From a virus: a stretch of DNA of 64,000 bases. The position numbers and the translations under genes were made by a program. A model generated the notes under the pieces. That model saw only the letters and a list, made by a program, of their open reading frames with translations, was not told the DNA's origin and did no database searches. The DNA lies in IMG/VR virus record IMGVR_UViG_3300040801_001572, positions 50,655-114,654 of that record; one strand, written 5' to 3'. Of the stretch, positions 1-54,611 are shown piece after piece; position 1 is the first letter of the stretch; each line of letters opens with the position of its first letter.

Positions 1-1141
1 TCTGGCCGGTAAATATGAAATAATATCTTTTGGCAAGAAGATCATTGTTTAAGTATTGCTGAAAACGATCTGAAGAACTGATATTAGTGTCAGCATTGTT
101 AGCAACAATCTGCCCCATGAGATGAGGAACAACAATGTATGTAAATTCACGCTGATATACTCCACGGCCGGTGTCGTACTCAAGCTGTCTTGTTTTAGTA
201 ATCACTCGGTGCAACTGTTTTAGTTCACCGTCTCTCTTGTCACGCTTGGCATCGTTGTTTTCTGTGTCGGTTTGCTGAGCAACTCGTTGGTAATCGGGAC
301 TAGAGGTCACAATTCTATTCACAGTATCAATGATGCTGATATTCTGTTCTGTTTTGATGGTTTTAACTTCGCTGCTGCCGACTTCGTCTTCCGTAAAGCC
401 CGCATTACGATTAAGGTTAGCAAGGTCAGCATCTGTTAAGCGATATGCAGCAATAGTAGGGTCTACAACAAATCGATACTGGTCAGGCTTCGTTAGGCCC
501 GTAACAGACTGCTGCACAGATCTTAACGACATTTGCGTTGCTAATTGGTCAAGTGCTCCGCCTACTGTTCGGTCTGTAATTTGCCAGCTCTTGCTTACCA
601 TTCCGAACTCGTCTCTTTGTACAGCTTCGTCGTAATGATATGCAGTTACAGAATACGTGGAGCCACCTGCATCGATTGCAGTTTCTACTGAACCAATCAG
701 TACTGGCCAGCGATATGTTAGGTTCGGAATAGAACCCTGTGGCTCGGATCCATTTGGCTCTTGCCTGTTTGCTTTGAACGTTAACTGAATGAAATATGGA
801 ATCTGAAAATAATTTTCTACGCCTAACTCTAAACTTGCAGCAATAATTTTGTCAATTAAACTTGCGCCTGTGAATTCTCTCAGTGTCATGCTGAGCTGAG
901 TAAATGTAGAGTTTTTAGAAGCCTTTGAATAACTAGGGTGGCTGCGAAATGTGAAATCTTCAATAAACACCTGGCTAGTTACACCAGACTGTGCAATCAC
1001 AATTCCGTTAGACGGATCCCAGTCGACGGATCGGTTCTCGCTGCGAATACTACGGTTCGGCAACATATAAAATGTTAAGTTATATGTTGTTAAGTTGTAT
1101 TCGTCTAGTATGTTTCCCTGTGGTGTAAAGGTAGTGCTCAT
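1..1141 (-). CDS. Virion structural protein, probably baseplate (partial)
   Basis: The reading frame opens at an ATG at 1141 on the minus strand and runs about 380 codons off the left edge of the window with no stop. The protein begins MSTTFTPQGNILDEYN and has no motif I can name with certainty. Its start overlaps the stop of the gp53-like gene (TAATG), so it is translated as the third gene of a baseplate operon. That position and the lack of enzymatic motifs suggest a baseplate or hub component. The C-terminus is missing, so the family cannot be settled from this window. Confidence 0.6.
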   Translation of the reverse strand, partial: MSTTFTPQGNILDEYNLTTYNLTFYMLPNRSIRSENRSVDWDPSNGIVIAQSGVTSQVFIEDFTFRSHPSYSKASKNSTFTQLSMTLREFTGASLIDKIIAASLELGVENYFQIPYFIQLTFKANRQEPNGSEPQGSIPNLTYRWPVLIGSVETAIDAGGSTYSVTAYHYDEAVQRDEFGMVSKSWQITDRTVGGALDQLATQMSLRSVQQSVTGLTKPDQYRFVVDPTIAAYRLTDADLANLNRNAGFTEDEVGSSEVKTIKTEQNISIIDTVNRIVTSSPDYQRVAQQTDTENNDAKRDKRDGELKQLHRVITKTRQLEYDTGRGVYQREFTYIVVPHLMGQIVANNADTNISSSDRFQQYLNNDLLAKRYYFIFTGQ

Positions 1142-10945: not shown

Positions 10946-13012
10946 GTGGCTGATGGAGTAATTATTGAGGGCTATGGCCCCGGCGCGAAGCAGTGGGCAA
11001 CTGAAGCTACTCAGGCTCAGGTACTAGCGACCCTGCAAAAGCTAGGCAGGCTTTCAGAAGACCAAATCAAAGAGATCAAAAAGGCAGCAGATGCCCAGTC
11101 TCCTGACGAATTGTTTAAAGGTGTCAAAAAAGAAGCAGACGAGCTAGACGAAGCTTTAGACGAACTAGAAAGTAGTACTAAAGGTCAAACCAAAGCCACA
11201 AAAGCAGCCACAAAAGAAACCAAAAACTATGCCGCAGCATTAGGTAAGTCTCTGCAAGAAACTGGTATTGCTACAGCAGCAACACTGGCAGCAGCAGGCA
11301 CAGCATTCGCAGTTGGAGCAGCAGATCAGCTGCAGATGTACCTACAATTAAATGCAGCAGGTATGAATTTAACTAGTTCAGTCGACGGAGTTCGCTCAGG
11401 GCTAGAAACATTTGCACGTTCAGCAGAAACAGCAGAATTAAGATTTGCTGATCTAGCAGATCTACAGCAACGTTACGGCAACGTACTAAACCTGTACGGT
11501 GTGCAACAGTTTGCTCGTGATTCTCAGCAACTAAACAATCAATTGAGTGTGCTAGGTTTTACTAGCCAAGAAACAGCAGAGTTCTTGTCTAGCTATGCAG
11601 AACAACAGCGTTTCTTTAGTCTCCAAGAACAGCTAGGCTCCCAAGAAAACATTAGACGAATAAACGAGTCTGCAAAAAGCTTAGATTCGTGGAGTAAGGT
11701 ACTAGGTCGTTCCAGAACAGAGTTGTTAGATGATATCAAAGAAAGCCAGCAATCTAGTATAAATGTAGCAGGTTTCATTGCACAGCAGCTTGCAGGCGGA
11801 AACAACGATATTAAACAAGCAATGGCCGAAGTAGCCATCGGATTTGGTGATGCCGGTCAAGACGTAGCAGAATTATTTGCAGCTAGGGCAGCAGCAGAAG
11901 CTCCGATATTTCAACAATTAGCGATTACTGCACCTGATGCACTTAATGCATTATTAGATATGCGTGAGCAGGTCAGAAACGGAGTAATACCTACCACAGA
12001 AGAAATGGCGAGAGTTACTTCGCTGGTAACTGATGCATCTATCACCTCAGCAAAGGCTATGGGTCCGTTGGGCGACGAAGCTATGGCAACTATTTTAAGT
12101 ATGCAGAGGGCTAACGCAAATATAACGAAACGAGCAGAAATAGAAGCGAAAGAACAAGACAAAGCACTAGGTGCGCTTGCTGAGACAGCTAATGCTGTAA
12201 CTAATGTTCAGGGTTCATTTGAAAGATCAGAGGCAAAAGCAGTCGGCACAGAAGAGTCGATGGACATTATAACTCGACAGTTAGATAAACTAGCTAACGA
12301 AGTGTTGGCACCTCAAAAGCTAGCTGAGATAACAGATAACATCGGTGAAGCAGGCGCAGACCTAATTTCAGCATTAGATGGTACTGCAAACGGATTGTTA
12401 GATCTGGCCAACGATATTATCAGTCCAGACTACAGTACAGGCGAAATAATTGCTGCTGGTCTTGCAGGAATGTTCCTGAGTACCACGGTAGTAAAAGCAG
12501 CAGGTAGTGCTATTCTCGGCGGATTAGGAAAGTTATTAGGAGTTAAGTCCTTAGGCGGTGCACTAAGTACTACCGGAGCGGCCGCTGGCGGCCTTAGTAC
12601 TGGCGCAGCTTTAGGAGTTGCAGGTGCAGGTATTGTAGGCTACGGTGCAGGCTCCCTCTTTAATACAGGGTACGAAAGATTAACTGGATCTTCTGTCGGT
12701 AGTGACTTGTTTGATTTCTTTACTGGTGGTAGCCAAGAAGCGCAAGTGGCTGCAATGCTATCTTCATCTAACGTTAATGTGAGAAACTCACCTGGTGTAA
12801 TGCCTACTGATCAAGGAGCGTCAGTTAGTAAATCTACTCCTCCGACGTCGGCTAGCTTAACCACATCCTCTAGTCAAACCACAATGGACTCGATAAATAG
12901 CTTGATATCGGTTGTTCAAGAACAAACTTCTGCAGTACACAGATCAAATGAACAGCTAGACATGGCAGTAAGCCACCTCAAACAGATTAGAAGAAACACG
13001 GAAGATACTTAA
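10946..13012 (+). CDS. Tail tape measure protein
   Basis: 688 aa, starting at a GTG. Long Ala/Gln/Glu-rich helical stretches (residues 20-100 and 110-500) are followed by a glycine/alanine-rich hydrophobic segment (about 510-590, LAGMFLSTTVVKAAGSAILG) and a Ser/Thr-rich tail. This is the usual build of myophage tape measure proteins, equivalent to T4 gp29 (590 aa), which set tail length and pass through the membrane. It is in the position before gp20 and overlaps its start by TAATG. Confidence 0.8.
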   Translation: MADGVIIEGYGPGAKQWATEATQAQVLATLQKLGRLSEDQIKEIKKAADAQSPDELFKGVKKEADELDEALDELESSTKGQTKATKAATKETKNYAAALGKSLQETGIATAATLAAAGTAFAVGAADQLQMYLQLNAAGMNLTSSVDGVRSGLETFARSAETAELRFADLADLQQRYGNVLNLYGVQQFARDSQQLNNQLSVLGFTSQETAEFLSSYAEQQRFFSLQEQLGSQENIRRINESAKSLDSWSKVLGRSRTELLDDIKESQQSSINVAGFIAQQLAGGNNDIKQAMAEVAIGFGDAGQDVAELFAARAAAEAPIFQQLAITAPDALNALLDMREQVRNGVIPTTEEMARVTSLVTDASITSAKAMGPLGDEAMATILSMQRANANITKRAEIEAKEQDKALGALAETANAVTNVQGSFERSEAKAVGTEESMDIITRQLDKLANEVLAPQKLAEITDNIGEAGADLISALDGTANGLLDLANDIISPDYSTGEIIAAGLAGMFLSTTVVKAAGSAILGGLGKLLGVKSLGGALSTTGAAAGGLSTGAALGVAGAGIVGYGAGSLFNTGYERLTGSSVGSDLFDFFTGGSQEAQVAAMLSSSNVNVRNSPGVMPTDQGASVSKSTPPTSASLTTSSSQTTMDSINSLISVVQEQTSAVHRSNEQLDMAVSHLKQIRRNTEDT

Positions 13013-33183: not shown

Positions 33184-33274
33184 GGAGGGTGATCCTGTCT
33201 GGGACAGGCGTGGTCTTGAAAACCAATGGAGGGTAGAAATATCCTTGCAGTTCGATTCTAGCCGCCCTCTGCCA
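33184..33274 (+). tRNA. tRNA-Ser (TGA)
   Basis: Class II. Loop CTTGAAA gives TGA; GGAGGGT/GCCCTCT acceptor; G73 as in Ser; CCA. Confidence 0.9.
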
Positions 33275-38805: not shown

Positions 38806-38834
38806 TTGCATTGTTGTTCCAGAGAGTGTATAAT
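38806..38834 (+). promoter_or_regulatory. Sigma70-type promoter for the SbtA-like gene, leaderless
   Basis: TTGCAT (38806-38811), 17 nt, TATAAT (38829-38834), then 7 nt to the ATG at 38842, so the transcript should start at or next to the start codon. Confidence 0.75.
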
Positions 38835-38841
38835 TCCCCCT

Positions 38842-39765
38842 ATGGATCCTGCAATTTTATTTTTTGTTTTAGGCTTTATTGCAACACTACTGGGTAGCAA
38901 TATACGTTTTCCGGAATCAACTGCAAAGGCAGTTAGTCTTTACTTGCTAATCGCAATCGGCTATAAAGGCGGAATGTCGATGGCAACCGCTGCACTGAGT
39001 TATTCAATGGCAATGTCACTAGGACTTGCTTTAGCTGCTAGCGTTGTTGTTCCGTTAGTCGCATATCTGTTGCTAAGAAAATTAGAAAAACTCGAAGATG
39101 CTGTGAGCATTGCAGCAACATATGGTTCGGTTAGTGCAGTGACGTTTGTCACAGCCGTTGCATTCTTAGAGGCAGCAGGCATAGTGTTTGGCGGTTACAT
39201 GGTAGCAGCACTGACTGTGATGGAAGCACCTAGTATTGTAATGGCACTACTACTTTATAACCGAAGCACTAGTGAAAGCAAAACTTCACTGAAAGAGTTA
39301 GGTAGAATTATCTTTGCAGAAAAAAGCATTGCTATCTTGTTAGGTAGTATGTTTATCGGATATTTTGCAGGTGCCGAATACCAATTAGCACTAGCAATTA
39401 AAGGTGATATTTTTAAATTTGCCCTTTGTTTATTTTTGTTAGACATGGGCGCAAAGGTTGGTGAACGTTTCCGAGTAACAAAAACACTTGAAATTCATAA
39501 TGTTCTTTTTGCTCTGTTAATGCCAATTACAGCAAGTATTACCATGCTGTTAGTGGCTAGTATGTTATCACTTCCGGTAGGTAATGCTTTGTTGCTTGCA
39601 ATACTGGCAGGATCAGCAAGCTATATTGTTGTTCCGGCCGTTATGCAAGAAGCTATGCCTGATGCAGATCATGCAAAATATTTTACAATGAGCCTAGCTA
39701 TCACTTTTCCGTTTAACGTAATTGTTGGCATACCTGCTTATTACTATTTGTTGCTGTTGCTATGA
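38842..39765 (+). CDS. SbtA-type sodium-dependent bicarbonate transporter
   Basis: 307 aa, strongly hydrophobic with about 10 membrane segments. The N-terminus MDPAILFFVLGFIATLLGSN followed by IRFPESTAKAVSLYLLIAIGYKGG is the hallmark of the SbtA (DUF897) family; the GSASYIVVPAVMQEAMPDAD segment near 265-284 also fits. SbtA imports bicarbonate with sodium across the inner membrane. The gene has its own early promoter with no leader. The next gene overlaps by ATGA. A carbon-concentration transporter is unusual cargo for a phage, though host acquisition is plausible. Confidence 0.85.
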   Translation: MDPAILFFVLGFIATLLGSNIRFPESTAKAVSLYLLIAIGYKGGMSMATAALSYSMAMSLGLALAASVVVPLVAYLLLRKLEKLEDAVSIAATYGSVSAVTFVTAVAFLEAAGIVFGGYMVAALTVMEAPSIVMALLLYNRSTSESKTSLKELGRIIFAEKSIAILLGSMFIGYFAGAEYQLALAIKGDIFKFALCLFLLDMGAKVGERFRVTKTLEIHNVLFALLMPITASITMLLVASMLSLPVGNALLLAILAGSASYIVVPAVMQEAMPDADHAKYFTMSLAITFPFNVIVGIPAYYYLLLLL

Positions 39766-40020: not shown

Positions 40021-40097
40021 GCCGGTGTACCAGAATAGGCATATGGACCTGGTTCAAACCCAGGGGTTTGTGGGTTCGACCCCCACCACCGGTACCA
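40021..40097 (+). tRNA. tRNA-Leu (CAA) with a short variable arm
   Basis: CCTGG-TTCAAAC-CCAGG anticodon arm gives CAA. Acceptor GCCGGTG/CACCGGT; ACCA. Variable region of 5 nt, so class I, unusual for Leu. Confidence 0.83.
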
Positions 40098-40102
40098 AAC
40101 AT

Positions 40103-40360
40103 GCGATATACACAGGAAAGCCTCCCTGTTGTGAGCAGGGCAAAGCGCCTGCAGTCACTATCGCAAATTTTTCAGAGGAAAGTCAGGACACGGCGGAAGC
40201 CAGGTGGGAGACGAAAGTCGCTAGAACCACAAGATACGAAAGCGCCGTGCAACACAAACAGTCCAGAGATAAGCTTCAATTGTAGACGGACGGGTAGTGG
40301 CACTAGATGAATGACGGTTGAAAAAACAGAATCCTGCTTACGTAGAACCGTCGCTGAAAC
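40103..40360 (+). ncRNA. rnpB: RNase P RNA
   Basis: The catalytic core signatures are in order: GAGGAAAGTC at 40175-40184 (5' strand of P4), a GTGCAACA segment near 40247, AGATGAATGAC at 40305-40315, and ACAGAATCCTGCTTACG at 40326-40342 (3' strand of P4). A GACGGGTAG-type segment is also present. At about 255 nt it is far smaller than the E. coli RNA (377 nt); the 5' P1-P3 region is reduced, with GCGATA/TATCGC and CCCTG/CAGGG helices. It fills the gap between tRNA-Leu and tRNA-Thr. No protein subunit gene is seen here. Confidence 0.93.
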
Positions 40361-40362
40361 TT

Positions 40363-40439
40363 GCTCCTAAAGCATTTATTTGGATGATGCCTGGTTTTGT
40401 AATCCGGAGAATGGGGTTCGATTCCTCATGGGAGCACCA
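40363..40439 (+). tRNA. tRNA-Thr (TGT)
   Basis: Loop TTTGTAA gives TGT; GCTCCTA/TGGGAGC acceptor; ACCA. A T-T mismatch closes the anticodon stem. Confidence 0.83.
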
Positions 40440-44360: not shown

Positions 44361-44466
44361 GGGCGTATAGTTTGAATGGATAAAACGACAGGCTCCACAC
44401 CTGTAGATCCGGAGCGGAAGCGCTGCAGAGCTGAAGCTAATGGTTCGAGTCCCGGTGCGCTCGCCA
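44361..44466 (+). tRNA. tRNA-Trp (CCA) with a 30-nt insertion in the T stem
   Basis: ACAGG-CTCCACA-CCTGT anticodon arm; GGGCGTA/TGCGCTC acceptor; G73, CCA. The expected T arm CCGGG-TTCGAGT-CCCGG is split: after CCGG (44409-44412) about 30 nt are inserted that form AGCG/CGCT and AGCT/AGCT hairpins. It may be inactive, or the insert may be removed. Confidence 0.7.
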
Positions 44467-51295: not shown

Positions 51296-51703
51296 ATGAG
51301 TGAGCCCAAAACATATAATTGTTTGTCTTGTGGCAAAGAAAATCTGTGGAAAGGACATAGTTACAGAAACAAATACTGCAACAATGAGTGCCAGCACGAT
51401 TACCAGCATCGTGAACGAATCAAGATTTGGTTCGAAACAGGACAAATAGGAGCTCATGTAGCAAAACGTTACTTACTCGAAAAGACAGGCTGTTGTGCCA
51501 TATGCGGCATAACAAGTTGGAATGAAAAAGAGATTGTTTTTGATCTTGACCATATCGACGGAAACAGTCAAAATAATAGACCCGAGAATTTGAGATTATT
51601 GTGTCCTAATTGTCATTCGCAAACAGACACATATAAGGCTCGCAACACGGGAAATGGCAGACACGCTAGAAGGCAGCGTTATGCTAAAGGAAAAAGTTTT
51701 TAA
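51296..51703 (+). CDS. HNH homing endonuclease
   Basis: 135 aa. An N-terminal zinc finger (CLSCGKENLW...CNNEC) and a C-terminal HNH of the cysteine type: CAICG, then FDLDHIDGNSQNNRPENLRL and LCPNCHSQTD. A TAAATA box lies 4 nt before the ATG. The gene ends 1 nt before tRNA-Thr, which itself carries a group I intron; the nuclease could be the mobility partner of that intron although it lies outside it. Confidence 0.9.
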   Translation: MSEPKTYNCLSCGKENLWKGHSYRNKYCNNECQHDYQHRERIKIWFETGQIGAHVAKRYLLEKTGCCAICGITSWNEKEIVFDLDHIDGNSQNNRPENLRLLCPNCHSQTDTYKARNTGNGRHARRQRYAKGKSF

Positions 51704-51704
51704 C

Positions 51705-51980
51705 GCCGGTATAGCTCAGCAGGTAGAGCAACTGACTTGAAAAGACGAGTGCTCCGAAGGAAACTTTGGAAGTAGAACTCCTCAAATTCGGGGAAACCTT
51801 TAACATGGCAATCCCGAGCGAAGCCCGGAAGGGAACGTGTAGAGACTTGACGGGGAGCAGCTAAGTCGTTAGATACGCTGAAGAGAAAGTCCAGACCACA
51901 AACGGTAAATGCCGGCAACGAAAGTTGTAGTTGGTAAGGTAATCAGTAGGTCCCGTGTTCGATTCATGGTGCCGGCACCA
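51705..51980 (+). tRNA. tRNA-Thr (TGT) interrupted by a group I intron
   Basis: Exons 51705-51738 and 51939-51980 join to a complete tRNA: ACTGA-CTTGTAA-TCAGT anticodon arm, GCCGGTA/TGCCGGC acceptor, ACCA. The break lies between T33-T34 and the rest of the anticodon. Confidence 0.9.
51739..51938 (+). ncRNA. Group I intron in tRNA-Thr (200 nt)
   Basis: Core sequences match the small group I introns of bacterial tRNAs: GGCAATCCCGAGC (P/Q region), GTGTAGAGACTTGACGGGG (P3/P7 5' side) and AGAGAAAGTCCAGACCAC (P7 3' side). P1 pairs exon ACTT with intron GAGT, putting a U-G wobble at the 5' splice site, and the intron ends with G (51938). No endonuclease is inside it. Confidence 0.9.
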
Positions 51981-53593: not shown

Positions 53594-53779
53594 ATGACTG
53601 AGCAAGAACAATTAGAAAAATTATCAAAGTCACTCGAAGAAACCGTTAGTAAACTTGCTCGGCTTGTAGACAGTTTTGAAAAATTAGGTGCAAACATCGA
53701 GCACCTAGAAAAACAGAAGCAAGAATTAGACACAATCAGTAAACAAATTGAAACTTTACGAAATAATAAAAAAGGATAA
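53594..53779 (+). CDS. Small coiled-coil protein
   Basis: 61 aa from the ATG at 53594, 3 nt after the tRNA-Leu CCA. Almost entirely heptad coiled coil (LEKLSKSLEETVSKLARLVD). No ribosome site. Likely an oligomerising adaptor; function unknown. Confidence 0.6.
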   Translation: MTEQEQLEKLSKSLEETVSKLARLVDSFEKLGANIEHLEKQKQELDTISKQIETLRNNKKG

Positions 53780-53780
53780 G

Positions 53781-54611
53781 ATGAAACCTATTTGCATTTA
53801 TCACGGCAATTGTGCCGATGGGATGAGCGCCGCTGCGGTTGTAGCATGGAAACTGGGTGCAGACAACGTTGATTTTCACCCGGGGTTCTACGGAGAAGAT
53901 CCGCCCGATGTGAAAGGACGTACAGTTTATGTTGTAGACTTTTCTTATCCCCGTGAACAAACAGTTGAGATGGCCAAGCAGGCAGAGAAAATTATTATCC
54001 TCGATCATCACAAAACAGCAGAGAAAAATCTAGTGGACTTGCCCGACAACGTCGAAGCCGAATTCGATATGAACCGGTCTGGTGCAATGATGGCATGGGA
54101 CTATTTCTATCCTGGGGAAAAACCTCCCCGTGTGCTCGAGCATGTGCAGGATCGTGACCTGTGGAGATTCAAACTCGAAAACACTCGTGAGATACAAGCG
54201 GCATTGTTTTCGTACCCCTATGACATAGAACTATGGTGTGGTCTAGTGTTAACAGACGAACACATCGATCAGCTTATACAAGATGGCGTCGCCATTAACC
54301 GTAAGCACCTCAAAGACGTACATGAATTAATCGACGTCGGCACTCACGAAATTGAATTGGCTGGATATACAGTTCCTGCCCTAAACGTGCCCTACATGCA
54401 TAGTTCTGAGGCAGGTTCGAAGCTAGCAATTGACAAACCCTTTGCAGCCTGTTATTTTGTAAATGAAAATGAAGTCTATGTGAGTCTCCGCTCAACTGAC
54501 GAAGGCGTGGATGTAAGTGAAGTTGCAGAAAGCTATGGCGGCGGCGGACACAAAAAGGCGGCCGCATTTAGAATGAGCAGAACAGACTTCAAGAAAATTT
54601 TTCCCAAATAG
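53781..54611 (+). CDS. DHH/DHHA1 phosphoesterase
   Basis: 276 aa. The DHH family motifs are visible: HGNCADGMSAA at 8-18, VVDFSYP near 55, IILDHHKTA at about 72-80, and the C-terminal DHHA1 motif YGGGGHKKAAAF near 256. Relatives degrade short oligonucleotides or cyclic dinucleotides in the cytoplasm; a phage enzyme could recycle nucleotides or remove a cyclic-dinucleotide signal. AAAGGA precedes the ATG. Confidence 0.9.
   Translation: MKPICIYHGNCADGMSAAAVVAWKLGADNVDFHPGFYGEDPPDVKGRTVYVVDFSYPREQTVEMAKQAEKIIILDHHKTAEKNLVDLPDNVEAEFDMNRSGAMMAWDYFYPGEKPPRVLEHVQDRDLWRFKLENTREIQAALFSYPYDIELWCGLVLTDEHIDQLIQDGVAINRKHLKDVHELIDVGTHEIELAGYTVPALNVPYMHSSEAGSKLAIDKPFAACYFVNENEVYVSLRSTDEGVDVSEVAESYGGGGHKKAAAFRMSRTDFKKIFPK

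Follow-up and report, generated by a model that had tools for sequence, protein, structure and literature searches.

Positions 40166–40362 of the window, the 64,000-nt stretch of phage DNA analyzed here, probably encode an RNase P RNA belonging to the phage itself: a ribozyme of about 197 nt that is reduced to the catalytic domain, is circularly permuted, and is likely to borrow the protein subunit RnpA from the host. The computational analysis assigns this RNA to a family of phage RNAs, defines its helices, reveals a replaced S-domain, and gives better pairing for P2 and P3 in the permuted arrangement (Table 1). Transcription, ends exactly at these positions, catalysis, and the use of host RnpA are anticipated for the window RNA. 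The widespread phage family, the replaced S-domain, and the apparently permuted P1–P2–P3 module had escaped the original prediction, which was made from the sequence of the window.

A covariance model, R1, was derived from 21 other phage RNAs with the window RNA left out. R1 matches the window at 40175–40340 over its full length (R1 positions 1–151) with 99.4 bits and an E-value of 4.3e-21. Together with a P4 helix that carries the conserved bulged U, this bears out the original prediction of a miniature, phage-encoded RNase P RNA with a tRNA gene on either side. The best-scoring Rfam model is that of class A (RF00010), which aligns with 40144–40359 of the local stretch (28.4 bits, E-value 1.8e-7) and has the window RNA as its sole match in the whole 114,654-bp record (E-value 1.8e-8). 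The match, obtained in a scan that had been proposed with the original prediction, is far beyond chance, although its 28.4 bits lie far below the RF00010 gathering score of 100 bits; standard annotation is therefore silent on this RNA.

The conserved regions CR-I, CR-IV, and CR-V occur in bacterial-type order. All four conserved strings named at the outset are present in the order given there, with GAGGAAAGTC at 40175–40184, GTGCAACA at about 40247, AGATGAATGAC at 40305–40315, and ACAGAATCCTGCTTACG from 40326. Three of them are RNase P blocks, as had been claimed; GTGCAACA corresponds in the Rfam and R1 alignments to the 3′ strand of P5 and J5/15 rather than to CR-II, and its counterpart in E. 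coli is GGAGCAAGGCCAAAUAGG. The two conserved strands expected to form P4 do so with eight standard pairs and U40183 bulged. Both strands of the helix, AAG(U)CAGGA / UCCUGCUU, depart from the usual CCGGG/CCCGG, and pairing is preserved; it is a compensated variant of the E. coli P4, AAG(U)CCGGG / CCCGGCUU.

Table 1. Positions in the window of the proposed RNase P RNA, its elements, and the flanking features.
Feature	Position	Strand	Basis
tRNA-Leu(CAA), encoded CCA, directly upstream of the leader	40021–40097	+	ARAGORN, Rfam
Leader hairpin	40098–40165	+	Branched fold closed by a perfect 7-bp stem, TGCGATA/TATCGCA
RNase P RNA proper (proposed), about 197 nt, permuted, ends meeting in P3	40166–40362	+	R1, folding, anchored pairing
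P3 3′ strand UUUCA, directly 5′ of GAGGAAAG; partner 40355–40359	40170–40174	+	Unconstrained MFE, centroid
CR-I GAGGAAAGTC	40175–40184	+	Sequence, RF00010, R1
P4 5′ strand AAG(U)CAGGA, bulged U40183; partner 40332–40339	40180–40188	+	Sequence, family covariation
P5 5′ strand CACGGCG	40189–40195	+	R1, folding
P6 5′ strand GAAGC, pseudoknot with 40273–40277	40196–40200	+	Sequence complementarity
Phage-type mini S-domain, P7 GGTGG...CCAC around GACGAAAGTC	40203–40230	+	Family alignment; covariation of helices 4 and 5
P5 3′ strand CGCCGTG, then J5/15 CAACACAAACAG	40243–40249	+	RF00010, R1
P15 5′ strand CAC; partner GTG 40297–40299	40253–40255	+	Covariation, R1
P16/P17 arm; P6 3′ strand GCTTC (40273–40277) in loop	40261–40291	+	R1
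L15 GGGTAG, position of the bacterial CCA-binding GGU motif	40292–40297	+	RF00010 and R1 alignments
CR-IV AGATGAATGAC	40305–40315	+	Sequence, R1
P2 3′ strand TGACGGTT	40312–40319	+	Anchored pairing
CR-V ACAGAATCCTGCTTA, including P4 3′ strand 40332–40339	40326–40340	+	Sequence, R1
Linker CGTAG at the expected P1 position	40341–40345	+	Sequence; P1 helix here in relatives
P2 5′ strand AACCGTCG, placed at the RNA 3′ end; pairs 8/8 with 40312–40319	40346–40353	+	Anchored pairing
P3 5′ strand (C)UGAAA; partner UUUCA(G) 40170–40175	40354–40359	+	Folding, MFE/centroid
tRNA-Thr(TGT)	40363–40439	+	ARAGORN

The search for homologues in other phages, also suggested with the original prediction, reveals a widespread family. 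A scan of IMG/VR with a spaced CR-IV/CR-V motif returned 56 contigs, most with GAGGAA upstream and many with the match in or beside a tRNA array. After further scans, the collection comprises 90 distinct phage cores which, measured from GAGG to P4, span 113–309 nt with a median of 189. tRNAs are present in the examined flank of 74 cores; a tRNA starts 10–30 nt downstream in 34, a tRNA ends 20–60 nt upstream in 31, and 17 cores have both, lying flush between two tRNAs. Host contamination was rejected as the source of the window RNA because the record encodes a portal protein, a major head protein, a tail sheath, and a T4-type late sigma factor. It is also countered by the distribution of the mini-type motif, which occurs in 62 viral contigs, whereas a looser form is found in only 10 contigs among 84,980 cellular species, mostly MAG contigs; a 3-kb cellular contig with the motif carries 13 tRNAs.

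Among the small relatives scored with RF00010, L160 reaches 106.8 bits; the others score 49–67 bits, fit the archaeal model better at a score under its cut-off, or are not listed. Unannotated mini-RNase P RNAs were also found in annotated phage collections, in uncultured phages of 735, 642, 635, and 595 kb. The cultured Stenotrophomonas phage DLP6 (KU682439.2, 105815–106006; L378:2350–2541) has a canonical, likewise unannotated member that scores 84.5 bits and lies within the 258-nt gap preceding tRNA-Arg. No homologue of the window RNA was detected in named phages by nucleotide similarity. A class A match is present in one of 27 MCP-related records, and G005 (385 kb) is the only relative record of the window phage with an RNase P RNA, which is large and canonical; near-matches of R1 in G011 and G012 do not resemble RNase P and were discarded. 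One contig with a mini-RNase P RNA also encodes a permuted tmRNA (L212:1996–2307; RF04321, 62.9 bits).

The secondary structure of the family is supported by covariation. Within the 21 RNAs of R1, 93% of the cells are paired and 23 of the 32 pairs have changed on both sides; the covariation score is 0.597, compared with 0.184 for shuffles, and slid structures do not exceed 0.115. The supported helices are P4 (with its bulged U), P5, P15, and P16, and P4 is 100% paired in the family. The strands equivalent to P6 pair in relatives too, for example in L213 and L121. By retaining P4 with its bulged U, P5, P6, P15–P17, and L15, the window RNA should recognize the acceptor stem and the encoded CCA of its substrates. 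CR-II and CR-III, by contrast, are absent from the window RNA in the RF00010 and R1 alignments. Where they would stand there is a short hairpin, GGTGGGAGACGAAAGTCGCTAGAACCAC, that is common to the family and displays covariation. The S-domain that recognizes the T-loop has given way to this phage-specific hairpin. Two other members, L215 (about 765–980, minus strand) and L331 (about 400–582), contain tRNA-like inserts with an acceptor-type stem and a T arm, apparently in the S-domain hairpin, for which ARAGORN makes no call.

The flanking genes bear on the extent of the RNA. An initial estimate of about 255 nt identified the flanking tRNA-Leu and tRNA-Thr correctly but included a leader, 40098–40165, that folds separately (−25 kcal/mol, z −2.84). 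Since this leader forms an independent hairpin, the RNase P RNA proper is probably restricted to the 197 nt or so that follow. The leader matches no Rfam family, and it was dismissed as a tRNA because neither ARAGORN nor Rfam recognizes one, despite an anticodon-like UUGUGAG loop. It contains ACTATCGC, which resembles the 5′ strand of a canonical P2 and pairs over 3 bp before a mismatch. This segment is possibly a relic of an ancestral 5′ module or strand. Both copies that resemble a P2 5′ strand would be accounted for if the region had been duplicated in tandem and its outer parts then lost.

The array itself had been put at about 48 tRNAs, whereas ARAGORN counts 41 in the window, 40 of them with an encoded 3′ CCA. 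Rfam adds a borderline tRNA at 44361 and a tRNA-Sec-like match at 33184–33270 (48.5 bits against a cut-off of 47), for which ARAGORN makes no call. The tRNA region also includes a gene for a sodium-dependent bicarbonate transporter of the Sbt_1 family (38806–39765; Pfam, 304 bits), which may be an auxiliary metabolic gene. Elsewhere, the window contains, at 51296–51909, an HNH ORF with a match to a group I intron behind it (RF00028, 54.5 bits) and a DHH/DHHA1 phosphoesterase ORF at 53748–54611.

The family layout places P1, then the P2 5′ strand (NNNN-TCG-C), a small P3, and GAGG at the 5′ end. The window RNA appears circularly permuted, with the 5′ strands of P2 and P3 at its 3′ end and P1 missing. 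The proposed strand order would be 5′-[P3 3′ strand]-P4-P5-core-P2 3′-P4 3′-linker-P2 5′-[P3 5′ strand]-3′; the two ends would pair with each other as P3, and a 5-nt linker would stand in for P1. The segment AACCGTCG, which is unique in the 64 kb on either strand, pairs with TGACGGTT in the standard P2 register; a C follows, and UGAAA then pairs with UUUCA flush before GAGG. Anchored P2 pairing, scored on the native window sequence only, extends over 8 bp at the 3′ site, whereas at the usual site a mismatch ends it after 3 bp. Among 86 distinct RNAs, the usual site gives 6–10 bp in 79, and pairing at the 3′ site is at most 5 in all except the window RNA. The exceptions are the window RNA, three RNAs with a displaced 5′ part (L051, L122, and L154), and three whose P2 is short or imperfect (L114, L130, and L172).

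Folding energies point to the same arrangement. The P2 duplex has −11.7 kcal/mol when permuted versus −3.8 kcal/mol at the usual site, and both the unconstrained MFE and the centroid structures show the permuted P2 and P3. In shuffled tails, an 8-bp match arises at a frequency of 9e-4, and an 8-bp match with a flush 5-bp P3 at 1e-6, a figure that is partly post hoc. Taken as a whole, the mature region shows no stability beyond that of its shuffles (z 0.22), in a calculation that excludes P4 and P6 as pseudoknots. An ordinary mini-RNase P RNA of canonical topology, with a weak P2 (ACTATCG/TGACGGT, one mismatch) and a 3′ AACCGTCG that arose by chance or serves as a regulatory switch, is unlikely. 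This topology is that of nearly all the 86 related RNAs, the family motif TATCGC is found upstream, ten bases 5′ of GAGG, and CTGC(A)G/CGTAG could form a short P1 with a bulge. However, forcing the canonical P2 costs 11.1 kcal/mol (−56.8 versus −67.9 kcal/mol for the free fold), and AAATTTTTCA yields no good P3 hairpin. The canonical topology is further opposed by the 8/8 match of the 3′ site to the P2 register, continued by GC and a flush P3, and by the single occurrence of AACCGTCG.

The permuted arrangement is represented by one example, the window RNA, and two targeted viral scans yielded no permuted relatives; L307 and L308, RNase P RNAs among the matches, were judged non-permuted by eye. 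L051, L122, and L154, in which no P2 5′ strand is nearby, had at first looked permuted; in L051 and L154 the strand is located upstream of an insertion in P3, and in L122 it was not found. The insertion in L051 (minus strand, 11118–11675 plus flanks) is an HNH endonuclease ORF (PF13395) inside the P3 loop, with the P3 strands TGTTCAACA/TGTTGAACA retained on either side; L154 has an insertion of about 200 nt at the same place.

A decaying RNase P pseudogene left behind in the tRNA array would explain the missing P1, the low RF00010 score, and the sporadic occurrence among the phage's relatives. We consider this very improbable: the strongly conserved core positions are intact, P4, P5, P15, and P16 pair as the family covaries, the match to R1 reaches 99 bits, and the loss of P1 is accompanied by a new and perfect arrangement of P2 and P3. 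With moderate confidence, we favor a phage-encoded, naturally permuted RNase P ribozyme with a self-releasing 3′ end and a phage hairpin in place of the T-loop-binding domain.

The gene for the protein subunit RnpA (PF00825) was not found in any of 25 IMG/VR phage records, which may be fragments and include the 114-kb record of the window, nor in three of five phage-collection records (DLP6, LR756501.1, and LR756511.1). In these 28 of 30 records, host RnpA would be required, if a protein is needed at all. The window RNA, with no RnpA gene in its record, most likely borrows the host protein, the partner proposed originally. The other two records, LR756502.1 (RNA at 525189–525473, L381) and LR745206.1 (76444–76752, L382), belong to phages of 635–642 kb and encode both a mini-RNase P RNA and RnpA (53 and 49 bits), the protein containing the sequence KKFKRAVDRNR(V/I)KRLMRE.

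The permuted ribozyme would strip the 5′ leaders from polycistronic tRNA precursors of the phage and would itself be embedded in the same precursor. Because the RNA ends flush with tRNA-Thr, RNase P cleavage at the 5′ end of that tRNA would create, and so release, the 3′ end of the ribozyme. A decoy role, in which the RNA would capture host RnpA or pre-tRNA and obstruct or divert host RNase P without cleaving, would be compatible with the missing S-domain and with the lack of a protein subunit gene in 28 of the 30 phage records. Such a role is extremely improbable in view of the family-wide conservation of the catalytic elements (P4 bulged U, CR-I, CR-IV, and CR-V), the location of the gene in arrays that need 5′ processing, and the presence of RnpA in two huge phages.

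RNase P RNA is viewed as a ribozyme of nearly all cellular life. The window RNA and class A (RF00010) are alike in CR-I, CR-IV, CR-V, P4 with its bulged U, P5, P6, P15–P17, and the L15 GGU. The window RNA is shorter (about 197 versus about 377 nt), lacks CR-II/CR-III, P8–P14, P18, and P1, and has the 5′ strands of P2 and P3 at its 3′ end, whereas those of class A are at the 5′ end with P1 joining both ends. Members of the phage mini family (for example DLP6 105815–106006, L145, L212, and LR756501.1) share with it the core, the mini S-domain GGTGGGAG..UCG.U.G.ACCACC, and the tRNA-array context; none of the other members examined is permuted, and nearly all have a 5′ P1 and a P2 beside the core. 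Type T RNase P RNAs of archaea (Pyrobaculum), as well as some from mitochondria, resemble the window RNA in having naturally lost or reduced the specificity domain; unlike it, they belong to archaeal and eukaryotic lineages and are neither permuted nor viral. Permuted tmRNA (RF04321), a different RNA, likewise comes from a tRNA-related gene that is circularly permuted in nature; it is split in two pieces, whereas the ends of the window RNA are proposed to simply meet in P3.

A search of an open-access library yielded no earlier description of an RNase P RNA that is phage-encoded or naturally permuted, and RNase P goes unmentioned in the main text of either the DLP6 paper or the huge-phage paper. 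Divergent RNase P RNAs of CPR bacteria resemble the window RNA in falling below model cut-offs and missing helices; they are cellular, and the part of the source considered here describes neither permutation nor phage origin (PMC8172020).

A natural permutation tests which connections of the P2–P4 pseudoknot are dispensable. A widespread viral family with GAGG–P4 cores down to 113 nt would supply natural minimal ribozymes for structural work, and DLP6, being in culture, opens the family to direct tests. The two RnpA-carrying phages of 635–642 kb would show viral genes for RNase P RNA and protein together, and the family would alter ideas on the extent to which large phages take over tRNA biogenesis.
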